In this document: positions 11,436-37,424 of the stretch, piece after piece
How the letters are laid out: every line of letters begins with the position of its first letter
How positions within the stretch are numbered: the stretch's first letter is position 1
Source: Nitrososphaerota archaeon
GTDB taxonomy: Archaea; Thermoproteota; Nitrososphaeria_A; Caldarchaeales; Calditenuaceae
Assembly (NCBI GenBank): GCA_009889515.1
Contig: WUQR01000139.1
Span: forward strand, 558,001-622,000
Length of the DNA stretch: 64,000 bases
Reading direction: 5' to 3'
Program-made: the position numbers and the translations under genes
Notes under the pieces: model-generated
Told to the model about the DNA's origin: nothing
The model's database searches: none
Seen by the model: only the letters and a program-made list of their open reading frames with translations

Positions 11436-12410
11436 GTGAGCGGGCTTATTCTCGCTGCGGATGTGGGTGCGACGAATATGCGTGTGGGGGTGTTCAACGA
11501 GGAGGGGAGGCTGCTCCGGTTTAAGAGTGGGAAAACCCCACAAACCAACTCTCCTGAGTCTGTCCCGAGGGCGCTCTTGGACTTGGCTAGGGAGGTGGCG
11601 GGCCAGGACTGGTCCGCGATTTGGAGGTGTGGTGTGGCCTCAATCGGACCCTTGGATTCAAAGAGGGGGGTGATCCTGAAGGCCCCCAACATTGCCGACA
11701 AGGGGCGCGAGATCCCCCTCCTAGCCTATCTGAAGGAGGAGCTGGACGTTGATTACTACTTCCTAAACGACTGTAACGCGGCCGCCTATGGAGAATGGTG
11801 GTCAAGAAAGGAGGAGGGAGTCAGGAATCTTATATACATCACAATCAGCAGCGGGATTGGAGGCGGGGTTGTAGACAATGGGCACCTAATCCTAGGAAAA
11901 ATTGGGAATGGGGCTGAGATAGGCCACATAGTCATCGATGCGGCTGGATACATGGACTGCGGGTGTGGTGGGCGGGGCCACTGGGAGGCGTATTGTTCGG
12001 GTGCGAATATACCCCGCCTAGCTGAGAGGCTTCTTAGGGATGGGCGACTGGAAAGGGGGACGGGCCTGGAGAGGGCGTACATTGATAAAAGTCTTGATGC
12101 CAAGAAGTGTTTTGAATTATACTATGTTGGAGACAGGGCGGCCTTGGGGCTGTTTGAGCTGCTAAAGGACTTTTACGCTGCAGGATTCGCAGGTGTAATC
12201 AACGCCTTCGACGCGGAAGTATTGGTGATAGGTGGGGCCATCTATCTCGGGCACGAGACCTTCTTCCAAAGCGAGGTATTTCCACGTATAGACAAGTTCC
12301 TTCTACTCGATAAGCCCCGCATAGCCAAGCCAGTACACGGAGATCTTGCACCACTATATGGTGCAGCGCTCTGCGCTCTCGACGGAGTTGAAGGGGCGAG
12401 GGTCGACTAG
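11436..12410 (+). CDS. ROK-family sugar kinase (probable glucokinase)
   Basis: ROK kinases phosphorylate glucose or related sugars with ATP. The 324-residue protein has the phosphate loop AADVGATNMRV (7-17), the catalytic aspartate D112 in NDCNAA, the EIGHI substrate motif (161-165) and the zinc site starting CGC at 175-177. The usual zinc motif CxCGxxGCxE reads CGCGGRGHWE here, with His182 in the third Cys position; histidine can also bind zinc. A GTG start gives SGLILAADVG, the expected N-terminus. Making glucose 6-phosphate would feed the F420-linked dehydrogenase operon at 32-36 kb; this link is inference. Confidence 0.85.
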   Translation: MSGLILAADVGATNMRVGVFNEEGRLLRFKSGKTPQTNSPESVPRALLDLAREVAGQDWSAIWRCGVASIGPLDSKRGVILKAPNIADKGREIPLLAYLKEELDVDYYFLNDCNAAAYGEWWSRKEEGVRNLIYITISSGIGGGVVDNGHLILGKIGNGAEIGHIVIDAAGYMDCGCGGRGHWEAYCSGANIPRLAERLLRDGRLERGTGLERAYIDKSLDAKKCFELYYVGDRAALGLFELLKDFYAAGFAGVINAFDAEVLVIGGAIYLGHETFFQSEVFPRIDKFLLLDKPRIAKPVHGDLAPLYGAALCALDGVEGARVD

Positions 12411-17609: not shown

Positions 17610-18575
17610 TCAGGGATAGGGATAGTAGTATCGGTAGACGGCCTCAAGGTCCTTGAGTATGGGAATCATCTCTTGGTCACCTCTCACGGTAGTGACTAGT
17701 GAGCCGACAAGAGTGGCCCTTCTCAAGGATTCGAACAGGTTTCGGCCCGCCAGCAAGCATGCTAGGAACGTCCCAGCCAACCCGTCTCCAGCGCCTATGG
17801 GGTCTTCTACGTTGACTTGGACTGCCTCGGCACGAGCCTTCTCACTTCCAGATGCGGCAACAGCCCCCCTCTCCCCCAGCTTTACCACTACAGTCTCTAT
17901 GCCGAGGCTTCTAAAGACCTCCAATATCTTCTCGGGCTCGCTCTCACCCACCAGAATCTCGGCGTCTGTCGGGTCTGTGAAAAGAATGTTCGCCTTCTCA
18001 ATCATTGGCATCAAAACCCTAGCAGCTTCCTCTAGGCTGGGCCACAAGGCTGGACGGATATTGGTGTCTATGGAGACTTGGACACCGTTTTTCTCCGCCA
18101 GCTGCAGGGCCTTGAGGCACGCCTCCCTCGCCGACTGGCTCAGCGCAGGTGTGATTCCAGTGAAGTGAAATATTCTCGAGTCTTTAAACGCCTCCTCCTC
18201 GACGTCTTCCGGCGAGAGCCTGCTCCCGGCAGAGCCGCGCCTGTAATAAAACATGGTACTTCTTGCCGGTATTGGGTATCCTCGCTGCACAAAGTAGATT
18301 CCAGTCGGCGCGCTGGGATCCGTCTTAAGCCACCTCGTATCGACCTTCTCAGCCCTCAGCCAGGCCTCGATGTTCCTGCCGAACTCGTCATCACCTACTC
18401 TTCCGATGAAGGCTGAGCTCCTTCCCAGCCTGCTCACGCAGACCGCCACGTTCGCCTCTGCTCCTGCAACGTGCTTCTCAAACAAAGTAACGTGTCTAAG
18501 CGGTCCCTTGGTGAGGGCGTTAAACTGTATGAGGGCCTCCCCCATCGCGACTAGCTCAGCCAAGTCTAGCCACAT
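17610..18575 (-). CDS. kdgK: 2-keto-3-deoxygluconate kinase-like PfkB sugar kinase
   Basis: A 321-residue ribokinase/PfkB-family kinase. The N-terminal MGEALIQFNALT and GGA-like AGAEANVAV strands and IGRVGDDEFG resemble KDG kinases; the C-terminal anion hole and base is DPIGAGDGLAGT (D258, D264). KDG kinase phosphorylates 2-keto-3-deoxygluconate in the semi-phosphorylative Entner-Doudoroff pathway. Its start overlaps the 3' end of the KDG-aldolase-like gene by 20 bases, which supports this assignment over fructo- or ribokinase. The pair is divergent from a GfcR-like regulator. Confidence 0.85.
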   Translation of the reverse strand: MWLDLAELVAMGEALIQFNALTKGPLRHVTLFEKHVAGAEANVAVCVSRLGRSSAFIGRVGDDEFGRNIEAWLRAEKVDTRWLKTDPSAPTGIYFVQRGYPIPARSTMFYYRRGSAGSRLSPEDVEEEAFKDSRIFHFTGITPALSQSAREACLKALQLAEKNGVQVSIDTNIRPALWPSLEEAARVLMPMIEKANILFTDPTDAEILVGESEPEKILEVFRSLGIETVVVKLGERGAVAASGSEKARAEAVQVNVEDPIGAGDGLAGTFLACLLAGRNLFESLRRATLVGSLVTTVRGDQEMIPILKDLEAVYRYYYPYP

Positions 18576-19461
18576 CCTCCGCCAACTTGTTAATGGGAGC
18601 GAGCCCCCGGGACAGTTGCTCCATCTCCTCCTGTCGTAGATGCCTCGTGGGCGGTATGGGTGGACCCATGTTTAAGCCTCTCAGTGTGAGTGCGTAGCGG
18701 TAGGATGCCGTGTCCGGCCCTACGCTCCTCAACAACCGCCTAGCCCTGTTAACGGCCAGCTGAAGCCTCAGCGCTTCTTCGCGGTCTCCACGCGCAACCG
18801 CCCTAAAGACACCCACGGCCAGCTCCGGATAGATGGATGCTAAGGCGCTCACGTGGGCCCTGATGCCGATCGAGAAAGCGTAGTAGAGGAGGTTGTCTCC
18901 ACCACATGCTATGAAGTGGCTGGACCCGAAGCTGGACTGGAGCTCAAGAATCAGGTCAGGGTCTCCACTGCTATCCTTGACGCCTCGTACAGCTGGGGCC
19001 AGCTCGAAAAGCCTCGCAATCTCCTGAAGACTTATCGGGTAGGCCTGCCTGCCGGGGTTGTTGTAGAATAGTACTGGTAGATTTGTGGAGGATCCGAGAG
19101 CCGTGTAGAAATTTGCTAGGGATTCCGCATCATACCTGTAATAGTATGGTGCGACGGCGGAGACGGCATCGGCCCCGATTTCTTGCGCGTGTTTAGCGAG
19201 TCTCAAGGATGATTCCAAGTCTGAAGAGCCCACGTGAACTATTTTTAAGAATCTGTCCCCTGCGAGAGAGACGATCTTTTTAGCCGCGTTCTCCCTAGCT
19301 TGGACTGAGAGCTTCGCGCCCTCACCCATCGTCCCCAGCACGAATATCCCGCCCACACCCCTCTCATGTAGAAACCTCAGATATGCCTCGATATCCGCAT
19401 CTTCGACGCCGTTAGGGGTAATGATCGCGGCTATTACACCCTTGAACCCTTCTAACTTCAC
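18556..19461 (-). CDS. kdgA: 2-keto-3-deoxy-(6-phospho)gluconate aldolase (DapA/NAL family)
   Basis: A class I aldolase of 301 residues in the dihydrodipicolinate synthase/N-acetylneuraminate lyase family. The Schiff-base lysine is K162 in GVKDSSGD; Y133 in FYNNPG is the proton shuttle; the phosphate/carboxylate loop GTMGEG (43-48) has Met where GTTGE is common. The pairing with a KDG kinase gene argues for cleaving KDG or KDPG to pyruvate and (phospho)glyceraldehyde rather than lysine synthesis. The start is GTG, and a TATA-like GATAATTATG (minus strand, about 19483-19492) lies some 27 bases upstream, consistent with a leaderless message. Confidence 0.85.
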   Translation of the reverse strand: MKLEGFKGVIAAIITPNGVEDADIEAYLRFLHERGVGGIFVLGTMGEGAKLSVQARENAAKKIVSLAGDRFLKIVHVGSSDLESSLRLAKHAQEIGADAVSAVAPYYYRYDAESLANFYTALGSSTNLPVLFYNNPGRQAYPISLQEIARLFELAPAVRGVKDSSGDPDLILELQSSFGSSHFIACGGDNLLYYAFSIGIRAHVSALASIYPELAVGVFRAVARGDREEALRLQLAVNRARRLLRSVGPDTASYRYALTLRGLNMGPPIPPTRHLRQEEMEQLSRGLAPINKLAEDVARLG

Positions 19462-24102: not shown

Positions 24103-24846
24103 CTAGAATAGGCTCTCCTCCTTGGGCCTAATTATTTGAGAGGCTCCCGTCTCACCTGTCTTATACTTGTATCCGCGTATGAGTACGGCAGGTATTCCCT
24201 CACCCGCCTGCCCCATGGCCAGCTCAGCTGCAGAAGCCAGCTCATCCGCTACGCAGATCTGCTTACTCCTGAGTATGCGGCCGAAGAGGTCGGGCTCTCC
24301 GCGCCTATCCCATATCGGCTCGATGCCGCTGCAACCTATCGCGATGTTCACTGCTCCGCGTCTAAACGGTCTGCCATGCGAGTCACAAATTATCACCGCA
24401 ACCTTCGCGCCAGTAGCTTCCTCGATTTCTTTCCTGATTCTTCTTGCAGAGGCGTCAGGGTCCTCGGGTAGTGTAGCCGCCCACCCCTCGCCTACATTTG
24501 AGAGGTCTACTCCGCTGTTCGCGCATATCAAGCCGTGTCTAGTCTCGGTGATCAAGACCTCGCCCCTGACCCTGACTATTCTTTTCGCCTCTCTCAGAAT
24601 GACCTCTATGTGTGCTGGGTCCTTGTTAGTGATGCGGGCCAGCTCTATTGCTTGGGGGCTGGGCGTTATCTCTGAGAGCCGGTATATTCTGCCCTCCGCC
24701 TTTGCAACCACCACATGACTAACCACGACTATGTCTCCATCAACCGGCCGAATCCCGCGCCCCGCTAAAGCATTTACAATCTCAACCCCCAGCCTATCCC
24801 CCGGCGCTATAATTTTCATCCCCTCAACAGGGATGATCTGGATCAA
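24103..24846 (-). CDS. cofE: Coenzyme F420-0:L-glutamate ligase
   Basis: CofE adds L-glutamates to F420-0 using GTP, finishing the deazaflavin cofactor F420. Family signatures are PVEGMKIIAPGDRL at the N-terminus, DGDIVVVSHVVVAKAEGR, RVRGEVLITETRHGLICANSG (in part), and CDSHGRPFRRGAVNIAIGCSG. A TTG at 24846 gives the expected start (IQIIPVEG); the frame stays open to an ATG at 24891, which would add 15 non-conserved residues. It supports F420 use by the dehydrogenase at 35230-36276. The rest of the F420 pathway is not in this window. Confidence 0.93.
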   Translation of the reverse strand: MIQIIPVEGMKIIAPGDRLGVEIVNALAGRGIRPVDGDIVVVSHVVVAKAEGRIYRLSEITPSPQAIELARITNKDPAHIEVILREAKRIVRVRGEVLITETRHGLICANSGVDLSNVGEGWAATLPEDPDASARRIRKEIEEATGAKVAVIICDSHGRPFRRGAVNIAIGCSGIEPIWDRRGEPDLFGRILRSKQICVADELASAAELAMGQAGEGIPAVLIRGYKYKTGETGASQIIRPKEESLF

Positions 24847-24918
24847 GCCATCGACCCAGATATCGCTAACATCTCCCCGAACTAAAAACAATATCGCCTC
24901 TGGAGGATGGCGGCGGGG

Positions 24919-31327: not shown

Positions 31328-32452
31328 GTGTCAATAAACGACTTGATACTCGGCCCTGAATCCTACGGAGATAGGCTCGAAGCAATTAACAACATAGTTA
31401 GAGCACACCTTCCTGTCCGCGAGGCAGTCTATGTTGAAGGTGTCTTGACATTCAAGATAATGACGAGGGAAATTAAGGAAAGCTTCAAGAAAATATACTC
31501 GGAGCTTTCCCGCATAGGCTTTGTCCCCGTCGCCCAAGATATCGAGGGTGAAGTATTGTTAAAGGTCTATCCCTACACCGCACCGGAGAGGCGTAGGAGC
31601 AGGTGGCCGCTAGTCCTATTTATCATCACTGTCTTCACGGTATTCATAGATGGTGTGATAAGGTCGGGTGGGATTGGTGCCTTCCCAGCCGGGCCCAGAT
31701 TTTGGGAGGCGGTCGCCTACACTGTCGGCGTCCTCTCAATAATAGGAATACACGAGCTTGGGCACAAGATCTCTGCGTGGCAAGATAGGATCGATTCCAG
31801 CTTGCCCTATTTTATACCGGGCATTCCCGGTGTCATGCCGACGTTCGGGGCTATAATATTCCAGCGTGGGCCGATACGGAATAGGGACGACTTGTTTGAC
31901 TTGGGTGTAAGTGGGCCCATAGCCGGTTTTCTTGCGAGCCTGGTCGTTATGGTGTTTGCATTCCAGCAGGCTGAGTGGGTTGAGAGGAGGGTTGTCGAGG
32001 AGCTGGTCCGGCGGGGCGAGGTCTCCCTCCTACCCTCCCCCCTCATCTTCAACCTAGCCAACAACATTTTCTCACCAGGCAATCTCGTCCCCATATTCCC
32101 CGCTGTGGGATTCGCCGCATGGCTAGGAATGGTGGTGACCAGCCTGAACCTCCTGCCCGTTTGGCAGCTGGACGGAGGTAGGATATTCAGAAGCCTCACA
32201 AGCTTCAAGCGTTACAGGCTACTCTCCTTCATCTCGGTCGGAATATTATTCTTGACAGGCTACTACTATCTATCACTCCTACTACTCTTCTTCCTGATGA
32301 CGCCGATAGATTTTGCGCCGCTGGACATGGTTTCACCCCTCTCAAAGTTCAGAAAAATTTCATTCATAGGTGTAGTTCTGATGCTGGTTGTTACGTTTGT
32401 TATCCTTCCTGGGCCTCTCCTAGGACTCCTCTCTCCACTGCTACGCTTCTAG
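31328..32452 (+). CDS. Site-2 protease (M50) with N-terminal soluble domain
   Basis: A second intramembrane metalloprotease, 374 residues. The first 90 residues form a soluble alpha/beta domain ending before the first membrane helix (about 93-110). The zinc motif is HELGH (142-146), and QLDGGRIF near residue 283 provides the third ligand. It has no PDZ domain, unlike the protease at 28767; the layout resembles the plant EGY/cyanobacterial type. The GTG start is preceded by TTTTTTACC, suggesting a short or absent leader. It overlaps the facing LarA-like gene by four bases. Confidence 0.9.
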   Translation: MSINDLILGPESYGDRLEAINNIVRAHLPVREAVYVEGVLTFKIMTREIKESFKKIYSELSRIGFVPVAQDIEGEVLLKVYPYTAPERRRSRWPLVLFIITVFTVFIDGVIRSGGIGAFPAGPRFWEAVAYTVGVLSIIGIHELGHKISAWQDRIDSSLPYFIPGIPGVMPTFGAIIFQRGPIRNRDDLFDLGVSGPIAGFLASLVVMVFAFQQAEWVERRVVEELVRRGEVSLLPSPLIFNLANNIFSPGNLVPIFPAVGFAAWLGMVVTSLNLLPVWQLDGGRIFRSLTSFKRYRLLSFISVGILFLTGYYYLSLLLLFFLMTPIDFAPLDMVSPLSKFRKISFIGVVLMLVVTFVILPGPLLGLLSPLLRF

Positions 32453-33459
32453 CCCGTTGCCACCATCCCTGGGTCGATGTGTAGGCCTTCTCTGACTAGC
32501 AGCATTCTGTGCCCCCGTCCATGAAGCCTTAGTATCTGGGCAAACCCCTCCTGCACTGTCTCGAACGTCTTGATGCCTATAAGTAGCTTGGCAAGGCTGC
32601 GGGGAAGGGAGGTTACCATGTAGGTTCTGTAGCTTCGAAGAGCGGTCGCTAGCCCCGCAGCTATGAGTTTGTATGGATCGGCATCAGGGCTTAGCTCGCC
32701 TTCTAGATCAGGCTTTAGGCTCTCATAGAGTTGACGTACAAACTCAGGTGGCCCCAGCCCCTCTTTACACTCTGAGACCGCGAGTATTGTCGTCTCATCC
32801 CCGCAGGCCGATGATGAGAGGATGATGGACTGGGCTGCTAGGTAGAGGGTGGAGTCTAGGGGTGCCTTACCGGGCGAGACTATGACCGAGTCGAACACGG
32901 GGGGCTTATGGTCTGGCCTGGGGTTTTGTGTCCAGATTCCGTGAATCGAGCCGTCGATGCTGTAAGAAATCTCCACAGGAAAGAGATTGATTCGAAAAGG
33001 ATCGAGGCCGCTGATTCCGTGGATTTTGAATAGCCATGCGAGATATTCATTCGTGCTTGTGGCGACTCGGCTTAGGAGCAGCCTCGAAGTGAGAGGATAA
33101 ATGAAGGTGGCTGATTCTAGGTTTGAAGTTTCATCTGCGAACTCCTTCAACGGCGCGAGTGGAGGCTTCTTCTCCAAGCTCTCAAGCTCTGCGACAGCCT
33201 CGCCTACTCTCTCAATCCCAAGTCGCCAAGATGAGACGTAGGCGATCTTACAAGTCTCAGCCAACCTCGCGAGCAGTGTTTTATAAGCGGTGGGTGTAGG
33301 AAGGTAGTCGATGAATACACAGGGCGTGTCAGGTATGGCTGAGACTCTAGATAATACTTCTTCGTAGGTTAGAGGGGTTGGACTGGGGGTTGTGACTGAT
33401 AGTTCGGGTGGGGCTTCGAAGAAGACCTCGGTGCTGCCCCACGGGATCCAATACTCCAT
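32449..33459 (-). CDS. LarA-like (DUF2088) protein, divergent and shortened
   Basis: LarA enzymes use a nickel-pincer nucleotide for racemisation or epimerisation. The 336-residue protein keeps the N-terminal IPWGSTEVFFEAP strand and, near residue 190-245, DSVIVSPGKAPLDSTLYLAAQ and ILAVSECKEGLGP, both typical of the LarA C-terminal domain. It is about 85 residues short of usual. The DxTRPxP-like motif reads IDYLPTPTAY, and I do not see the histidines or lysine that hold the pincer cofactor, so lactate racemase activity is unlikely. It is the last gene of the gnd operon, six bases after gnd, and may act on a sugar acid or lactone; that is speculation. Confidence 0.65.
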   Translation of the reverse strand: MEYWIPWGSTEVFFEAPPELSVTTPSPTPLTYEEVLSRVSAIPDTPCVFIDYLPTPTAYKTLLARLAETCKIAYVSSWRLGIERVGEAVAELESLEKKPPLAPLKEFADETSNLESATFIYPLTSRLLLSRVATSTNEYLAWLFKIHGISGLDPFRINLFPVEISYSIDGSIHGIWTQNPRPDHKPPVFDSVIVSPGKAPLDSTLYLAAQSIILSSSACGDETTILAVSECKEGLGPPEFVRQLYESLKPDLEGELSPDADPYKLIAAGLATALRSYRTYMVTSLPRSLAKLLIGIKTFETVQEGFAQILRLHGRGHRMLLVREGLHIDPGMVATG

Positions 33460-33465
33460 CCCTTA

Positions 33466-34866
33466 TCACTCACTGCTGCGTCCCCAGTCTGAGTGGAAGT
33501 AGCCCTCCCTGTCCACTCTTTTGAACATGTGTCCGCCGAAATAGTCTCTGATTCCCTGTATCAGGTTTGCGGGCAGCCTATCTGACCTTAGGGAGAGGTA
33601 GTATGAGAGGGCGCTCATGGAGGCTGGGGTGGGGATTCTCATCCTAGATGCGTTTGTGATGAATTGGAGCCATTGGGGCATCAGCTCCTCAAGCTGGGGT
33701 ATGATTTTATCGAAAGCAACAGCCGTAGGCTCGCCAGGGGTCCATGAAAGCTCCTTGTAGAGCTCCTCAACGATTCTGGACCTTATTATGCAGCCTGCCC
33801 GCCATACTCTGAGGGCCTCTGAAACCCTGAAGCCATAGTTCCGCGCCCCAGCCTGGAGGAGTGATATGCCTTGGATATAGGAGAGGAGTGTGGTGGCGAG
33901 TAGCGAGTTCTTAGCCGCTTCCACGGCCTCTCCCACATTCCTATCCCCGTTAAATCCAGCTTCCTGCGCGGGCCTCCTGAGTGTACGGAGGGTCGTGAGG
34001 GTCCTCTCATCCACTGCGGCGGCTATGGTGGGGGCTGAGACTCCCAGCTCCATGGCGGCCTCGACCGCCCACCTGCCTGTACCCTTCTGCTCAGCCTCAT
34101 CTAGGATTAGCTCGACCAGTGGCTTGCCAGTTTCAGGGTCGATGTATCTGAGAACCCTGGCCGCCGCCTCAAGTAGAAATGAGCGGAGCACGCCCTTCCC
34201 CCACTCCTCAAAGACCGAGCCCACCTCCCCGCTCGATAGGCCTACACCCCTCAAGAGATAGTCGTAGACCTCGGCTATCGCCTGCATTATAGCATATTCA
34301 ATCCCGTTGTGTACAATCTTGACGAAGTGTCCGGCCCCGCCCTCGCCGAAGTAGCTGACGCACTTGGAGTTCTCGAAGACAGCTGCGGCGCGCCCTATCT
34401 TATTCTCGGCCTCGATGTAGGCGGAGAAATCTCCTCCGAACATCATGGAGGGGCCCTTTAACGCTCCCTCCTCGCCACCACTCACACCCACTCCCAGAAA
34501 TCTTATACCCCTGCCGCTAAGCTCGGCGAATCTCCTGTCAGAGTCCCTGTAATGAGAGTTGCCACAGTCAATGATGATGTCGCCCTTCTCAAGCATGTGT
34601 GTTAAGGTCTCGACCACCTCGTCAACCGGCTTCCCAGCCTTCACGAATAAAACGATCATCCTAGGCCTTGAGAGGGAATCTACAAACTCCTTGAGATCGG
34701 TGAAGCCCTGTATCCTCTTTCCCTTGGCTTTGCCTTGGAGAAACTGTGTTGTTTTCTCGGCAGTCCTGTTGTAGACGGCTACGGTGAGGCCTCTGCTCTC
34801 GAGGTTGAGGGCGAACGCCTCACCCATCACGCCCAGGCCGTAAACTCCTACATCGAGTCCATTCAT
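33466..34866 (-). CDS. gnd: 6-phosphogluconate dehydrogenase (decarboxylating)
   Basis: This enzyme oxidises 6-phosphogluconate to ribulose 5-phosphate and CO2. The 466-residue protein has the N-terminal dinucleotide motif VYGLGVMGEAFALNL, the catalytic VKIVHNGIEYAIMQ with lysine and asparagine, and a C-terminal RDYFGGH tail that closes over a neighbouring subunit. VYNRTAEKT after the second strand has the Arg typical of NADP preference. It lies between an ArsC/Spx-like gene and a LarA-like gene, three and six bases away, in the fgd operon. The oxidative pentose phosphate pathway is rare in Archaea. Confidence 0.95.
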   Translation of the reverse strand: MNGLDVGVYGLGVMGEAFALNLESRGLTVAVYNRTAEKTTQFLQGKAKGKRIQGFTDLKEFVDSLSRPRMIVLFVKAGKPVDEVVETLTHMLEKGDIIIDCGNSHYRDSDRRFAELSGRGIRFLGVGVSGGEEGALKGPSMMFGGDFSAYIEAENKIGRAAAVFENSKCVSYFGEGGAGHFVKIVHNGIEYAIMQAIAEVYDYLLRGVGLSSGEVGSVFEEWGKGVLRSFLLEAAARVLRYIDPETGKPLVELILDEAEQKGTGRWAVEAAMELGVSAPTIAAAVDERTLTTLRTLRRPAQEAGFNGDRNVGEAVEAAKNSLLATTLLSYIQGISLLQAGARNYGFRVSEALRVWRAGCIIRSRIVEELYKELSWTPGEPTAVAFDKIIPQLEELMPQWLQFITNASRMRIPTPASMSALSYYLSLRSDRLPANLIQGIRDYFGGHMFKRVDREGYFHSDWGRSSE

Positions 34867-34869
34867 TCC

Positions 34870-35223
34870 CTAATGAGCCACCCTCCTTTCTCGGGGATGG
34901 CCTACTATCTTTAAGGCATCCCTACCAGCGTAGACCTCATCTCCCGCGATGACGACGGGGCGTATAAGCCTCTTAGGCTCGAGCCTCAGCTTTTCCAGAA
35001 ACCTCTCTAGACCCTCCTTCTCTAGGGCTTTCCTCGCCTCAGACTTACCGACCCTAACAACACCCTCAACACCATACTTCTCCACAAGCTCTTTCAGAAC
35101 TTTCTTATCAGGAGGATTCTTGACTATGTCTATAAAATTAAGGCTCAGCCCCTGCGAGGTTAGGGCCCTTTCAACCTCCCGGCTCGTCTTACACCGCTTG
35201 TAGCCATAGAAGATTATACTCAT
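34870..35223 (-). CDS. ArsC/Spx-family thioredoxin-fold protein
   Basis: A 117-residue protein of the ArsC/Spx family: FYGYKRCKTSREVERAL at the N-terminus with a single active-site-like cysteine C11 in CKTS, then LIRPVVIAGDEVYAGRD near the C-terminus where ArsC has LIxRPIV. The second cysteine of Spx-type CxxC is absent. Family members are arsenate reductases or redox-responsive regulators. Its place between fgd and gnd (gaps of six and three bases) suggests a role in redox control of that operon, which is inference. Confidence 0.8.
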   Translation of the reverse strand: MSIIFYGYKRCKTSREVERALTSQGLSLNFIDIVKNPPDKKVLKELVEKYGVEGVVRVGKSEARKALEKEGLERFLEKLRLEPKRLIRPVVIAGDEVYAGRDALKIVGHPRERRVAH

Positions 35224-35229
35224 GAGGGC

Positions 35230-36276
35230 TCACTCTGATGTGATTCTTATGGGTATCCGGAGGCTCTCGTAGTACTCTCTCACCCAGGGCAGTATCTCCC
35301 TGCCCAGCAGGTTTAGGAACTTCTCCTCATCGGGTGAGGAGCTGTGGATGAATACCCTGTCGAAGCCAAGCTTGAGGAATTCTCCGAGTGCCTTGTAGAT
35401 GTCGTCTGGATCACTTGTTATTAGCCAAGTCTTCTTAATCTTCTCAACCTCGCTCTCGCCTACCATCGCCTCAAGTTCCCGCGGGTCTGCAACCCTCTCC
35501 CTCTTCTCCCTAGGAATAGCTGTGGGGGCCCAGAACAGGGCGCCTTCCAGCGCCTTTCCATAGTCTGGGTCGTAAGAGACTTTAAACTCCATACACTTGC
35601 TGAGAGTTGAGATGTCTTTTCCCGCCTTCTTAGCCCCCTCTTCAAGTGCTTTCACTATCAAATCATAGTTCTCAAGCCCCCGGGGATTCGTGAGTATCCC
35701 GTCGGCGTATTGCCCGGCTATCTCAGCCACCTTTCTATCCGCTGTGGCGATGTATAGTTTGATATTCTTCTTCGGCTTGGTGTATAGCTTAGCCTTTACT
35801 AGGCGGTAGTATTTCCCCTCGTAGTCAACAAAGTCTCCGCGCCAGAGGAGCTGAATTATCTCAACCGCCTCCTTCAGCCTCTCAACCTTCTCCTTATAGC
35901 TCGGCCACTGAAACCCTAGGGGTACTTCATTCATGGCGTGCCCGGTGCCCACTGTTAGAAAGATGCGGCCAGGATACATGTAGTCAAGAGTTGCGAAGGC
36001 CTGGGCCACGATGGCGGGATGATACCTGAAAAGAGGGGTGGTGACGGCGGTCCCAACCTCAACACCCTTCAACCTCTCCGCAACCGCCGTCATCCATATC
36101 CAGGGGTGTGCTGAGTGGCCTCCTTTGTCCCTCCAGGGGTGGAAGTGGTCGCTGGTTACTATGGTGTCAAAGCCCACGATTGAGGCGTGTATTGCGAACT
36201 CCATCAGCCTGTCGGGCGGATATTGCTCCTGTGCTACCCAGTAGCCGAGGCTTATACCCCTCATCCGGGGATACAC
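35230..36276 (-). CDS. F420-dependent glucose-6-phosphate dehydrogenase-like luciferase-fold enzyme
   Basis: The 348-residue protein aligns along its length with mycobacterial Fgd1: QEQYPPDRLMEFA, TSDHFHPWRDKGGH (42-54), TPLFRYHPAIVAQAFATL, and ECKVSYD-like and KTWLITSDPDD segments. His44 matches the active-site His40 of Fgd1, and two phosphate-binding lysines appear kept. The acid Glu109 of Fgd1 is replaced: GTGEALNE reads GTGHAMNE (His113). So a phosphosugar and F420 are likely, but glucose 6-phosphate is not certain. An ATG at 36264 is an alternative to the GTG start. It leads the four-gene operon ending with the LarA-like gene. Confidence 0.85.
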   Translation of the reverse strand: MYPRMRGISLGYWVAQEQYPPDRLMEFAIHASIVGFDTIVTSDHFHPWRDKGGHSAHPWIWMTAVAERLKGVEVGTAVTTPLFRYHPAIVAQAFATLDYMYPGRIFLTVGTGHAMNEVPLGFQWPSYKEKVERLKEAVEIIQLLWRGDFVDYEGKYYRLVKAKLYTKPKKNIKLYIATADRKVAEIAGQYADGILTNPRGLENYDLIVKALEEGAKKAGKDISTLSKCMEFKVSYDPDYGKALEGALFWAPTAIPREKRERVADPRELEAMVGESEVEKIKKTWLITSDPDDIYKALGEFLKLGFDRVFIHSSSPDEEKFLNLLGREILPWVREYYESLRIPIRITSE

Positions 36277-36367
36277 TCTCCCATGCCCAATATATCTATA
36301 ATCCGCTTGGAGCGGCAGAGTAATTAAACAAAATACATGAGGGTAGAGGTGGGCAGGTGGAAAGTCT

Positions 36368-37030
36368 TTGAGGCTCGTCCTACTCTCACACAGGGTGGGG
36401 AGAAGTACCCCACTCTACCCCGGAACACCCCCTATACAGCTCACACATTATAGAAGCATAGAGCGTGGAGACTCGAGCAACCTCTGGGTCATCAGCATGG
36501 CCAATCACACCGGCACACACGTCGATGCGCCAAACCACTTCTACAAGAATGGCCGAAAAATATCCGAGTACGCGGCGGAGGAGCTCCTCTTTGAGAACGT
36601 CCGGCTGATTGATGTCCCGAAGCAGCCCGGTGGAGAAGTCTTGGCCGAGGACTTGAAGCCATACAGTCACATCATCGAGTCCTGTAGCCTGCTCCTAATA
36701 CGGACCGGCCTCCAATCCTATAGGGACACGGACCCGGATGCATATTCCTCCAAGGGCCTCCTATTCTCGCCGTCAGCAGCCAAGTTCCTCAAAGACTCGT
36801 TCCCAAACCTCAGGGGTATCGGAATAGACGCAATCAGCGTCTCCACGCCTTTACGGAGAAGCGAGGGGCGAGAAAGCCACAGAATACTTCTCTCAGACAA
36901 CCGGTTCCTAATAGTTGAGGATATGGACCTAGCAGGCAAACCGGCTGCCTACAGGTACGTCATCTTGGCCCCACTGCTTTTAGAAGAGGTCGACAGCGCA
37001 CCCTGCACCGTCCTCGGAATCACCGATTAA
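36368..37030 (+). CDS. Cyclase-family metal-dependent hydrolase (kynurenine formamidase-like)
   Basis: A 220-residue member of the cyclase family (PF04199), zinc/manganese amidohydrolases that include arylformamidase. The metal motif HTGTHVDAPNHF supplies H47, H51, D53 and H57; IGIDAISVSTP is the second conserved segment. No tryptophan catabolism genes are nearby, so a substrate cannot be named. The start is TTG, preceded by GGTGG. It overlaps the facing metallopeptidase gene by 11 bases. Confidence 0.87.
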   Translation: MRLVLLSHRVGRSTPLYPGTPPIQLTHYRSIERGDSSNLWVISMANHTGTHVDAPNHFYKNGRKISEYAAEELLFENVRLIDVPKQPGGEVLAEDLKPYSHIIESCSLLLIRTGLQSYRDTDPDAYSSKGLLFSPSAAKFLKDSFPNLRGIGIDAISVSTPLRRSEGRESHRILLSDNRFLIVEDMDLAGKPAAYRYVILAPLLLEEVDSAPCTVLGITD

Positions 37031-37424
37031 GGTCTTGAAGACCCCTAAGCCTCCTGGAAAGCCTCTTGACCTCTCCCCTAAAGTCTAGTCTGCCATGGCT
37101 GATCAACCCGCCCCCCATCGTCCTCGGGATGTGAAGTAGCTCGTGAAGTATGACCTCCACCTTCTCTTCACTCGACAGTCTGTCAAAAATCTCTGAGACG
37201 AACTCGATCACGTAGTGGGGGCTGAGTCCGAGGCCTGTCCAGAGCGCCCTACTCCCTGAGTGGACGCGAGCGGCTATACTCCTAGACCTTGTCTCATAGC
37301 TCCTCACACATTTAATCCTCGTGTAGTCGAGATAGACGAGCCCAGCACGAGACCCAATCTCCTTAACATACTCCTCAAGCGACCTATCCCTCACATACCT
37401 AGCCATCGCCAAGGCCCAGCCCAC
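37020..37424 (-). CDS. Predicted small metallopeptidase
   Basis: A 134-residue protein with a zinc-peptidase helix VILHELLHIPR (H94, E95, H98) followed by a possible third ligand at H110 in ISHGR. This matches archaeal putative metallopeptidases of the COG4900 type. The N-terminal half is helical and lacks a signal peptide, so it is cytoplasmic. An internal ATG at residue 7 may be the true start. Substrate unknown. Confidence 0.75.
   Translation of the reverse strand: MGWALAMARYVRDRSLEEYVKEIGSRAGLVYLDYTRIKCVRSYETRSRSIAARVHSGSRALWTGLGLSPHYVIEFVSEIFDRLSSEEKVEVILHELLHIPRTMGGGLISHGRLDFRGEVKRLSRRLRGLQDLNR

Follow-up and report, generated by a model that had tools for sequence, protein, structure and literature searches.

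A conserved gnd operon of Caldarchaeales and its probable part in an F420-linked oxidative pentose phosphate branch

Four open reading frames on the minus strand of the analysed stretch of 64,000 nucleotides (the window) are separated by gaps of 6, 3 and 6 bases and encode an FGD-like dehydrogenase, an ArsC-like protein, Gnd and a LarA-like protein (Table 1), in agreement with the one-strand, four-gene operon described in the first-pass annotation. CofE and a ROK kinase, which had also been placed in the window, were both found. The ROK kinase is possibly a glucokinase supplying glucose 6-phosphate; it is not linked to the operon. A PF04199 hydrolase gene is transcribed divergently from the operon. 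This conserved neighbour had been overlooked, as had a SIS-domain isomerase. The 91-bp region between operon and hydrolase gene probably acts as promoter. Bacterial promoter and Rfam scans gave no match in this region, and a bacterial terminator scan returned nothing useful.

Table 1. Features of the window discussed in the text.
Feature	Position	Strand	Description
ROK-family sugar kinase	11436-12410	+	PF00480 176.8 bits; NF045551 191 bits (cut-off 500)
cofE	24103-24891	-	F420-0:gamma-glutamyl ligase (F420 biosynthesis); PF01996 259.9 bits
LarA_C-like gene	32449-33459	-	shortened LarA-fold protein, 336 aa
gnd	33466-34866	-	NADP-dependent 6-phosphogluconate dehydrogenase, 466 aa
ArsC-like gene	34870-35223	-	ArsC/Spx-superfamily thioredoxin-fold protein, 117 aa
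FGD-like gene	35230-36276	-	F420-dependent LLM-class dehydrogenase, 348 aa; start codon GTG, with an ATG in frame at codon 5
Divergent intergenic region, 91 bp	36277-36367		between FGD operon and hydrolase gene; AT-rich TATA-like stretch
PF04199 cyclase-family metal-dependent hydrolase gene	36368-37030	+	220 aa; candidate 6-phosphogluconolactonase

Conservation of the operon in relatives, suggested earlier as a check, was confirmed within the genus (Caldarchaeales). Order, strand and neighbours of the four genes are the same in all six available genomes, at protein identities of 44-98%, and chance clustering was therefore ruled out. The FGD is the slowest-evolving of the four proteins (90-98% identity within the genus).

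For Gnd, both equivalog models were passed (NF006765: 524 bits, cut-off 413; TIGR00873: 497 bits, cut-off 426.7). The protein carries full-length PF03446 and PF00393 domains and matched the solved 6PGDH 2w8z with 408 bits over the full length. When aligned to 2w8z, catalytic and substrate motifs were kept (KIVHNGIEY, VSGGEEGA, QKGTG and RDYFGGH). Judged by its sequence, this is a textbook 6-phosphogluconate dehydrogenase of the NADP-dependent type. A ribokinase (above cut-off) adjoins gnd in three genomes of family f4.

The FGD-like protein scored above the cut-offs of Bac_luciferase and TIGR03557 (236.6 bits vs 210 for the latter) and below the equivalog cut-off of TIGR03554 F420_G6P_DH (314 bits vs 420). 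It is matched over its full length, and E13, H40 and W44 of FGD are retained. Best PDB matches were Rh-FGD1 (5lxe, 304 bits), Mtb FGD1 (3b4y, 295 bits) and Adf (1rhc, 253 bits). In a small tree, the Caldarchaeales FGDs formed one clade, which joins FGD1, and not Adf or the paralogues, with support of 93/96 and across long branches. A scan of genome contigs with FGD returned eight loci, all Caldarchaeales; it relied on exact peptide patterns, which limited its reach outside the order.

For the order-wide survey, 44 Caldarchaeales genomes were compared, 24 with an FGD of this clade (FGD+) and 20 without (FGD-). Gnd at an identity of at least 44% was present in 23/24 FGD+ and 0/20 FGD- genomes; such counts are not independent across relatives, and by genus they become 8/0 vs 0/6. 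The PF04199 hydrolase was likewise found in 23/24 vs 0/20 genomes, and the SIS-domain sugar-phosphate isomerase in 24/24 vs 1/20. FGD and gnd lie at separate places in the g2 genomes, and three g10 genomes carry a divergent gnd without FGD. The SIS gene is convergent with FGD in G008, f3 and f4 and is encoded away from the operon in the source genome. A tandem-SIS reading of the N-terminal half of the SIS protein was not confirmed (profile comparison, E 0.26). Its AF2 model, made from a 3-sequence alignment, reached a pLDDT of 35 and was not used as evidence. By family searches, on which all genome-wide absences rest, canonical G6PDH (Zwf) was found in none of the 44 genomes, and full-size transketolase and lactonases of PF01182 and PF10282 in none of the 24 FGD+ genomes. 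RuMP synthase was present in only 3 of these 24. RpiA is present.

An F420-linked oxidative pentose phosphate branch, encoded by the operon together with its divergent neighbour, is the best reading of these data, because FGD, Gnd, PF04199 hydrolase and SIS isomerase co-occur while Zwf, the two tested lactonase families, transketolase and, mostly, RuMP synthase are absent. Its probability is put at roughly 0.6. The Caldarchaeales-specific FGD clade would reduce F420 and turn a hexose 6-phosphate into the lactone, with glucose 6-phosphate as the most likely substrate. The lactone would be opened by the PF04199 metal hydrolase of the adjacent gene, or would open by itself in the heat. Gnd would then decarboxylate 6-phosphogluconate with NADP+ to ribulose 5-phosphate, which RpiA would convert to ribose 5-phosphate. 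The SIS isomerase, whose gene adjoins FGD in other families, probably supplies the pool of hexose phosphates. The branch would thereby replace transketolase and, mostly, RuMP as the pentose source in these lineages. The direction of flux and the roles given to the SIS, LarA-like and ArsC-like proteins are predictions. The first-pass annotation had proposed the same type of branch. Its core is strengthened by the identity of Gnd, the order-wide co-occurrence of gnd with the FGD clade and the absence of Zwf, transketolase and, mostly, RuMP synthase from FGD-bearing genomes; two of its parts, a LarA-like lactonase and a general redox link through ArsC/Spx, were not supported, and residues that bind phosphate in characterised FGDs are altered in this FGD (see below).

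For the lactone-opening step, the PF04199 hydrolase (85.5 bits to PF04199) appears to be the best candidate. The six KynB metal-site residues (H50, H54, D56, H60, H161 and E173) correspond to H47, H51, D53, H57, H171 and E184, and since all six are invariant in 14 orthologues, it is a better candidate than the LarA-like protein. It scored below the cut-off of the arylformamidase model (64.6 bits vs 223) and belongs to neither PF01182 nor PF10282. No description of a 6-phosphogluconolactonase within the PF04199 family was found in the literature consulted. The strongest competing explanation, rated a little short of even odds, keeps the pathway as proposed and lets the lactone open without an enzyme or through another family, with the PF04199 protein acting elsewhere, for example on another FGD product. 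Spontaneous hydrolysis of 6-phosphogluconolactone is established chemistry and is quicker in heat, and characterised PF04199 members act mostly on amides. However, the hydrolase shares the phyletic profile of the FGD clade and is divergently adjacent to FGD in most genomes (families f1, f3 and f4), and a trans-dienelactone hydrolase is a member of its family (PMC5341072). Tentatively, and with odds somewhat against it, the PF04199 hydrolase may represent a new, non-homologous class of 6-phosphogluconolactonase; with a charge-rewired FGD clade and Gnd it would form an F420-linked oxidative pentose pathway on which entire families of archaea would depend as their only source of pentoses.

The substrate of the FGD clade was considered from its active-site residues. 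The FGD1 phosphate residues K198/K259/R283 are replaced by R/R/T(S) in 24/24 orthologues; two of these changes preserve charge and the third does not. The same 24 proteins have His in place of E109 and Glu in place of H260. An R282Q substitution leads to nearly complete loss of Rh-FGD1 activity (PMC5352752). On these residues, the clade is not a canonical FGD, and because the phosphate residues and E109 are altered, we only infer glucose 6-phosphate as its substrate. The same changes (E109H, R283T/S, H260E) could indicate an F420 dehydrogenase of another substrate, such as an alcohol, another sugar or a sugar acid, with 6-phosphogluconate for Gnd coming from gluconate phosphorylation and the co-location reflecting general sugar metabolism. 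Adf and hydroxymycolic acid dehydrogenase of the same subfamily do use other substrates, and the source genome has several FGD-like paralogues. This explanation is nevertheless considered unlikely. Around the phosphate site, R198, R256, K258 and R259 are invariant, so that cationic residues were gained and not only lost; K232 and H311 are shared with FGD1 proteins only; the clade co-occurs tightly with Gnd; and Zwf is absent.

The LarA-like protein, suggested in the first-pass annotation as the lactonase, matched LarA_C with 27.9 bits, confined to residues 190-250. Its AF2 model (pLDDT 90.9) matched lactate racemases in Foldseek (E 1.7e-13), and all top matches were of the LarA family (TM 0.54-0.66 over the query). 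A role as 6-phosphogluconolactonase is very improbable. The gene is directly downstream of gnd in 9/9 gnd-bearing genomes of the family, and the fold should be able to hold aldonates, since LarA relatives include D-gluconate 2-epimerases (PMC11770544). However, it is missing from the gnd loci of f3 and f4, and the protein evolves fast (22-79% identity). Among nine homologues there is no invariant His or Lys, and E11, E19, D51, S195, D202, C231 and R311 are the only invariant polar residues, which makes it a poor lactonase candidate without nickel-pincer chemistry. An active nickel-pincer epimerase on 6-phosphogluconate can practically be dismissed in spite of the full-length LarA fold, as the catalytic residues H108 and H174 and the NPN ligands R75, K184 and H200 of LarA (PMC11770544) have no invariant His/Lys counterpart and the N-terminal domain is ~85 residues shorter. 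Residue loss thus rules out or makes unlikely both enzymatic roles. The protein is more probably a family-specific partner of gnd with an accessory or regulatory function.

The ArsC-like protein was below the cut-offs of both the arsC_related and ArsC models (TIGR01617: 39.6 bits, cut-off 75; TIGR00014: 31.5 bits, cut-off 106). It has a single Cys, within RCKTSR; canonical Spx carries CxxC. Identification as Spx or arsenate reductase is not supported on these grounds. The gene is present in 6/6 genomes of the genus and outside it only in G009, there beside FGD. This restriction, like the score below the cut-off of the Spx model, argues against the general redox link proposed earlier, and it suggests a lineage-specific addition.

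To our knowledge, archaeal pentose synthesis is settled for few groups only, by RuMP, transketolase or the oxidative branch of Haloferax. The gene set described here suggests a lineage-by-lineage swap between known pentose routes and an F420-linked oxidative branch in an uncultured thermophile order, and it points to a testable lactonase candidate. The pentoses of DNA and RNA are probably made by F420-dependent glucose phosphate oxidation in this heat-loving uncultured archaeon. F420 would thereby gain a defined central-metabolic role in TACK archaea, for which a 2021 review saw no definitive experimental evidence of F420 production and roles (PMC8498797).

Compared with FGD (EC 1.1.98.2) acting with Gnd, the system shares the LLM/TIM-barrel subfamily, E13/H40/W44 and, as proposed here, the use of F420 in the step leading into the pentose phosphate branch. 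It differs in the phosphate residues (R/R/T(S) instead of K/K/R) and at E109 (His here), and it is archaeal and operonic with gnd, with a PF04199 gene next to it and a PF01182 lactonase lacking. The hydrolase shares the HxGTHxDxxxH metal motif and the distal His and Glu with KynB, isatin hydrolase and trans-dienelactone hydrolase. The LarA-like protein resembles LarA nickel-pincer racemases and epimerases in overall fold, but not in NPN-binding and catalytic residues. Haloferax volcanii likewise oxidises glucose 6-phosphate and then uses Gnd; its G6PDH, as summarised in PMC8506132 (Pickl and Schonheit 2015), is of the SDR family and unrelated to the FGD here. FGD-annotated genes of related archaea were reported for the thaumarchaeote Gagatemarchaeum (up to 12 copies, by KEGG K15510) and assigned to stress resistance, in a passage that describes no gnd operon (PMC10640624). 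For Calditenuis fumarioli and relatives, of the same order, an 'incomplete oxidative PPP' with the non-oxidative phase absent was described (PMC10547907). The pathway passage of that account names no glucose-6-phosphate dehydrogenase, lactonase or FGD, and this pathway could be completed by the genes described here for the FGD clade, the PF04199 hydrolase and the SIS isomerase.

The window lies in contig C139 of a 2.11-Mb metagenome-assembled genome (G000) of the Caldarchaeales, formerly Aigarchaeota, presented in a survey of the order as geothermal archaea (PMC10547907). The first-pass annotation had proposed an operon of four closely spaced genes, and this was borne out: four - strand ORFs are separated by 6, 3 and 6 bases. 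The last of them (LarA-like) shares 4 bases with the end of an M50 peptidase gene that converges on it. At the other end, 91 bp separate the F420-dependent glucose-6-phosphate dehydrogenase-like LLM gene (FGD) from a PF04199 hydrolase gene of opposite direction. The order GT - M50 - (LarA-like - gnd - ArsC-like - FGD) - PF04199 - PhageMetallopep - LeuRS was found in 6/6 genomes of the genus. G008, of the same family, is without the ArsC-like gene, and there gnd and FGD are separated by the metallopeptidase and PF04199 genes. G006 and G009 keep gnd paired with the LarA-like gene and have FGD at a separate site. The PF18894 'phage metallopeptidase' family gene looks like a resident cellular gene, because it is syntenic beside the operon in the genus and nearby in G008.

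Coordinates of the operon and associated features
Feature	Sequence	Position	Strand
LarA-like	window	32449-33459	-
gnd	window	33466-34866	-
ArsC-like	window	34870-35223	-
FGD-like	window	35230-36276	-
PF04199 hydrolase	window	36368-37030	+
PF18894 family gene	window	37020-37424	
PfkB kinase and DHDPS/KDPG-aldolase-family gene	window	17610-19461	
SIS-domain protein gene	G000:C139	322635	
Distant FGD-like/PF04199 pair	G015:C8	45037-46705	convergent

The firm anchor of the pathway reading is Gnd, which scores above both NCBIfam equivalog cut-offs, aligns end to end with solved 6-phosphogluconate dehydrogenases and keeps their motifs. This family converts 6-phosphogluconate to ribulose 5-phosphate. 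A ribokinase above cut-off precedes gnd in three genomes of family f4. Divergent gnd genes (39-41% identity) were seen in three genomes of genus g10 (L118, L119 and L120 in G026, G024 and G033), with transketolase present and the FGD clade, Zwf and the tested lactonases absent.

The idea of an F420-linked oxidative pentose branch stood at its core, with a caution over its dehydrogenase. The protein exceeds the cut-off of TIGR03557 (F420 LLM subfamily), and its top-scoring model is TIGR03554 (FGD), yet below that model's cut-off. Its closest solved structures are Rh-FGD1 and Mtb FGD1, with Adf behind. Orthologues (at least 67% identity) occur in 24/44 genomes of the order (FGD+) and in 0/37 sampled genomes from other orders of the phylum, where the best match has 48% identity and Glu at 109. 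In a 33-row tree the Caldarchaeales sequences form a single group (support 99/98) that joins FGD1/Rh-FGD1 (93/96, subject to a long-branch warning). Every orthologue retains E13, H40 and W44; E109 is replaced by His, H260 by Glu, K198 and K259 by Arg, and R283 by Thr/Ser. The clade is thus not canonical FGD. The phosphate residues (K198, K259 and R283) are important, and the R282Q variant of Rh-FGD1 was left almost inactive (Nguyen et al., PMC5352752). Simple loss of phosphate binding is disfavoured, because the same segment carries extra invariant cations (R256, K258, R259) and K232 and H311 are kept, which among the rows compared are common to the clade and FGD1 proteins only. From these alignments we infer a putatively re-wired phosphosugar pocket. 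In G015, a distant FGD-like gene (48%) adjoins a distant PF04199 gene (33%), so dehydrogenase and hydrolase may be paired outside this clade as well.

The PF04199 gene, a SIS-domain gene and the f4 ribokinase are neighbours overlooked at first pass. All 24 FGD+ genomes encode the 385-aa SIS protein, as does a single FGD- genome, which is incomplete; its gene is convergent with FGD in G008, f3 and f4, and remote from the operon in genus g1. The C-terminal half of the protein is similar to 6-phospho-3-hexuloisomerase (90 bits against a cut-off of 160) and also matches PDB 9lj9. A sugar-6-phosphate isomerase gene adjoining FGD is indirect evidence for a hexose-6-phosphate substrate.

A PF04199 orthologue was found in 23/24 FGD+ genomes, divergently adjacent to FGD in 18/24, and in none of the FGD- genomes, G015 and G041 holding 33% relatives only. 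All six KynB active-site residues correspond to invariant H47, H51, D53, H57, H171 and E184. Family members include amidases, esterases and a trans-dienelactone hydrolase (PMC5341072); lactone opening thus has chemical precedent. This hydrolase is now the predicted lactonase candidate, replacing the LarA-like protein.

The AF2 model of the latter (pLDDT 90.9) matches lactate and malate racemases along its length, so the predicted LarA fold holds. LarA function involves R75, K184 and H200 for the nickel-pincer cofactor and H108/H174 as acid/base (PMC11770544). No His or Lys is invariant across the nine aligned members, which tells against the lactonase role first suggested, and the N-terminal half is shortened relative to longer archaeal LarA relatives. 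It is most plausibly a LarA-fold protein without the cofactor, which might sense a ligand or act as a partner of Gnd; its link to gnd is confined to the family. Further alignable Caldarchaeales proteins (344-440 aa; loci L019, L023, L034 and others) may likewise be without the usual LarA motifs, possibly forming a broader cofactor-free family. The ArsC/Spx-like protein, once put forward as a possible redox tie of the operon, was demoted: it has a single Cys, scores below threshold for the ArsC and the Spx model and accompanies FGD in the genus and G009 only (adjoining it in the latter). A redox role is possible.

PF00479 (Zwf) was found in 0/44 genomes of the order, and PF01182 and PF10282 lactonases and full-size Transketolase_N matches in no FGD+ genome; the last are present in FGD- genera g10, g12 and g13. 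RpiA is nearly universal. RuMP synthase (HPS) was not found in families f1 and f4, and is present in FGD- f2, g13, g14 and one g12 genome. Within g6 it is above cut-off in 3/6 genomes (G016/G018/G020) and not in G013/G022/G028; all six carry the FGD-PF04199-SIS-gnd set. Neither FGD clade, full-size HPS nor transketolase was found in G030 and G032 (93-95% complete). Fisher tests by genus, a fairer guide though also not independent, gave p = 3.3e-4 for FGD-PF04199 and for FGD-gnd and 0.055 for FGD versus transketolase; per-genome values (1.2e-11, 1.2e-11 and 2.2e-5) are inflated by shared ancestry. Elsewhere in the window, a PfkB kinase (382; KDG/KDGal kinase cut-off 400) overlaps a DHDPS/KDPG-aldolase-family gene, likely a branched Entner-Doudoroff pair.

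The survey of Caldarchaeales reports an incomplete oxidative pentose branch, the genes discussed here not being named in the text consulted (PMC10547907), and Fgd-like genes of related Thaumarchaeota have been linked to stress resistance (PMC10640624). As far as the consulted parts of these reports go, this gene set is undescribed; its composition is therefore new, within a kind of pathway already known.
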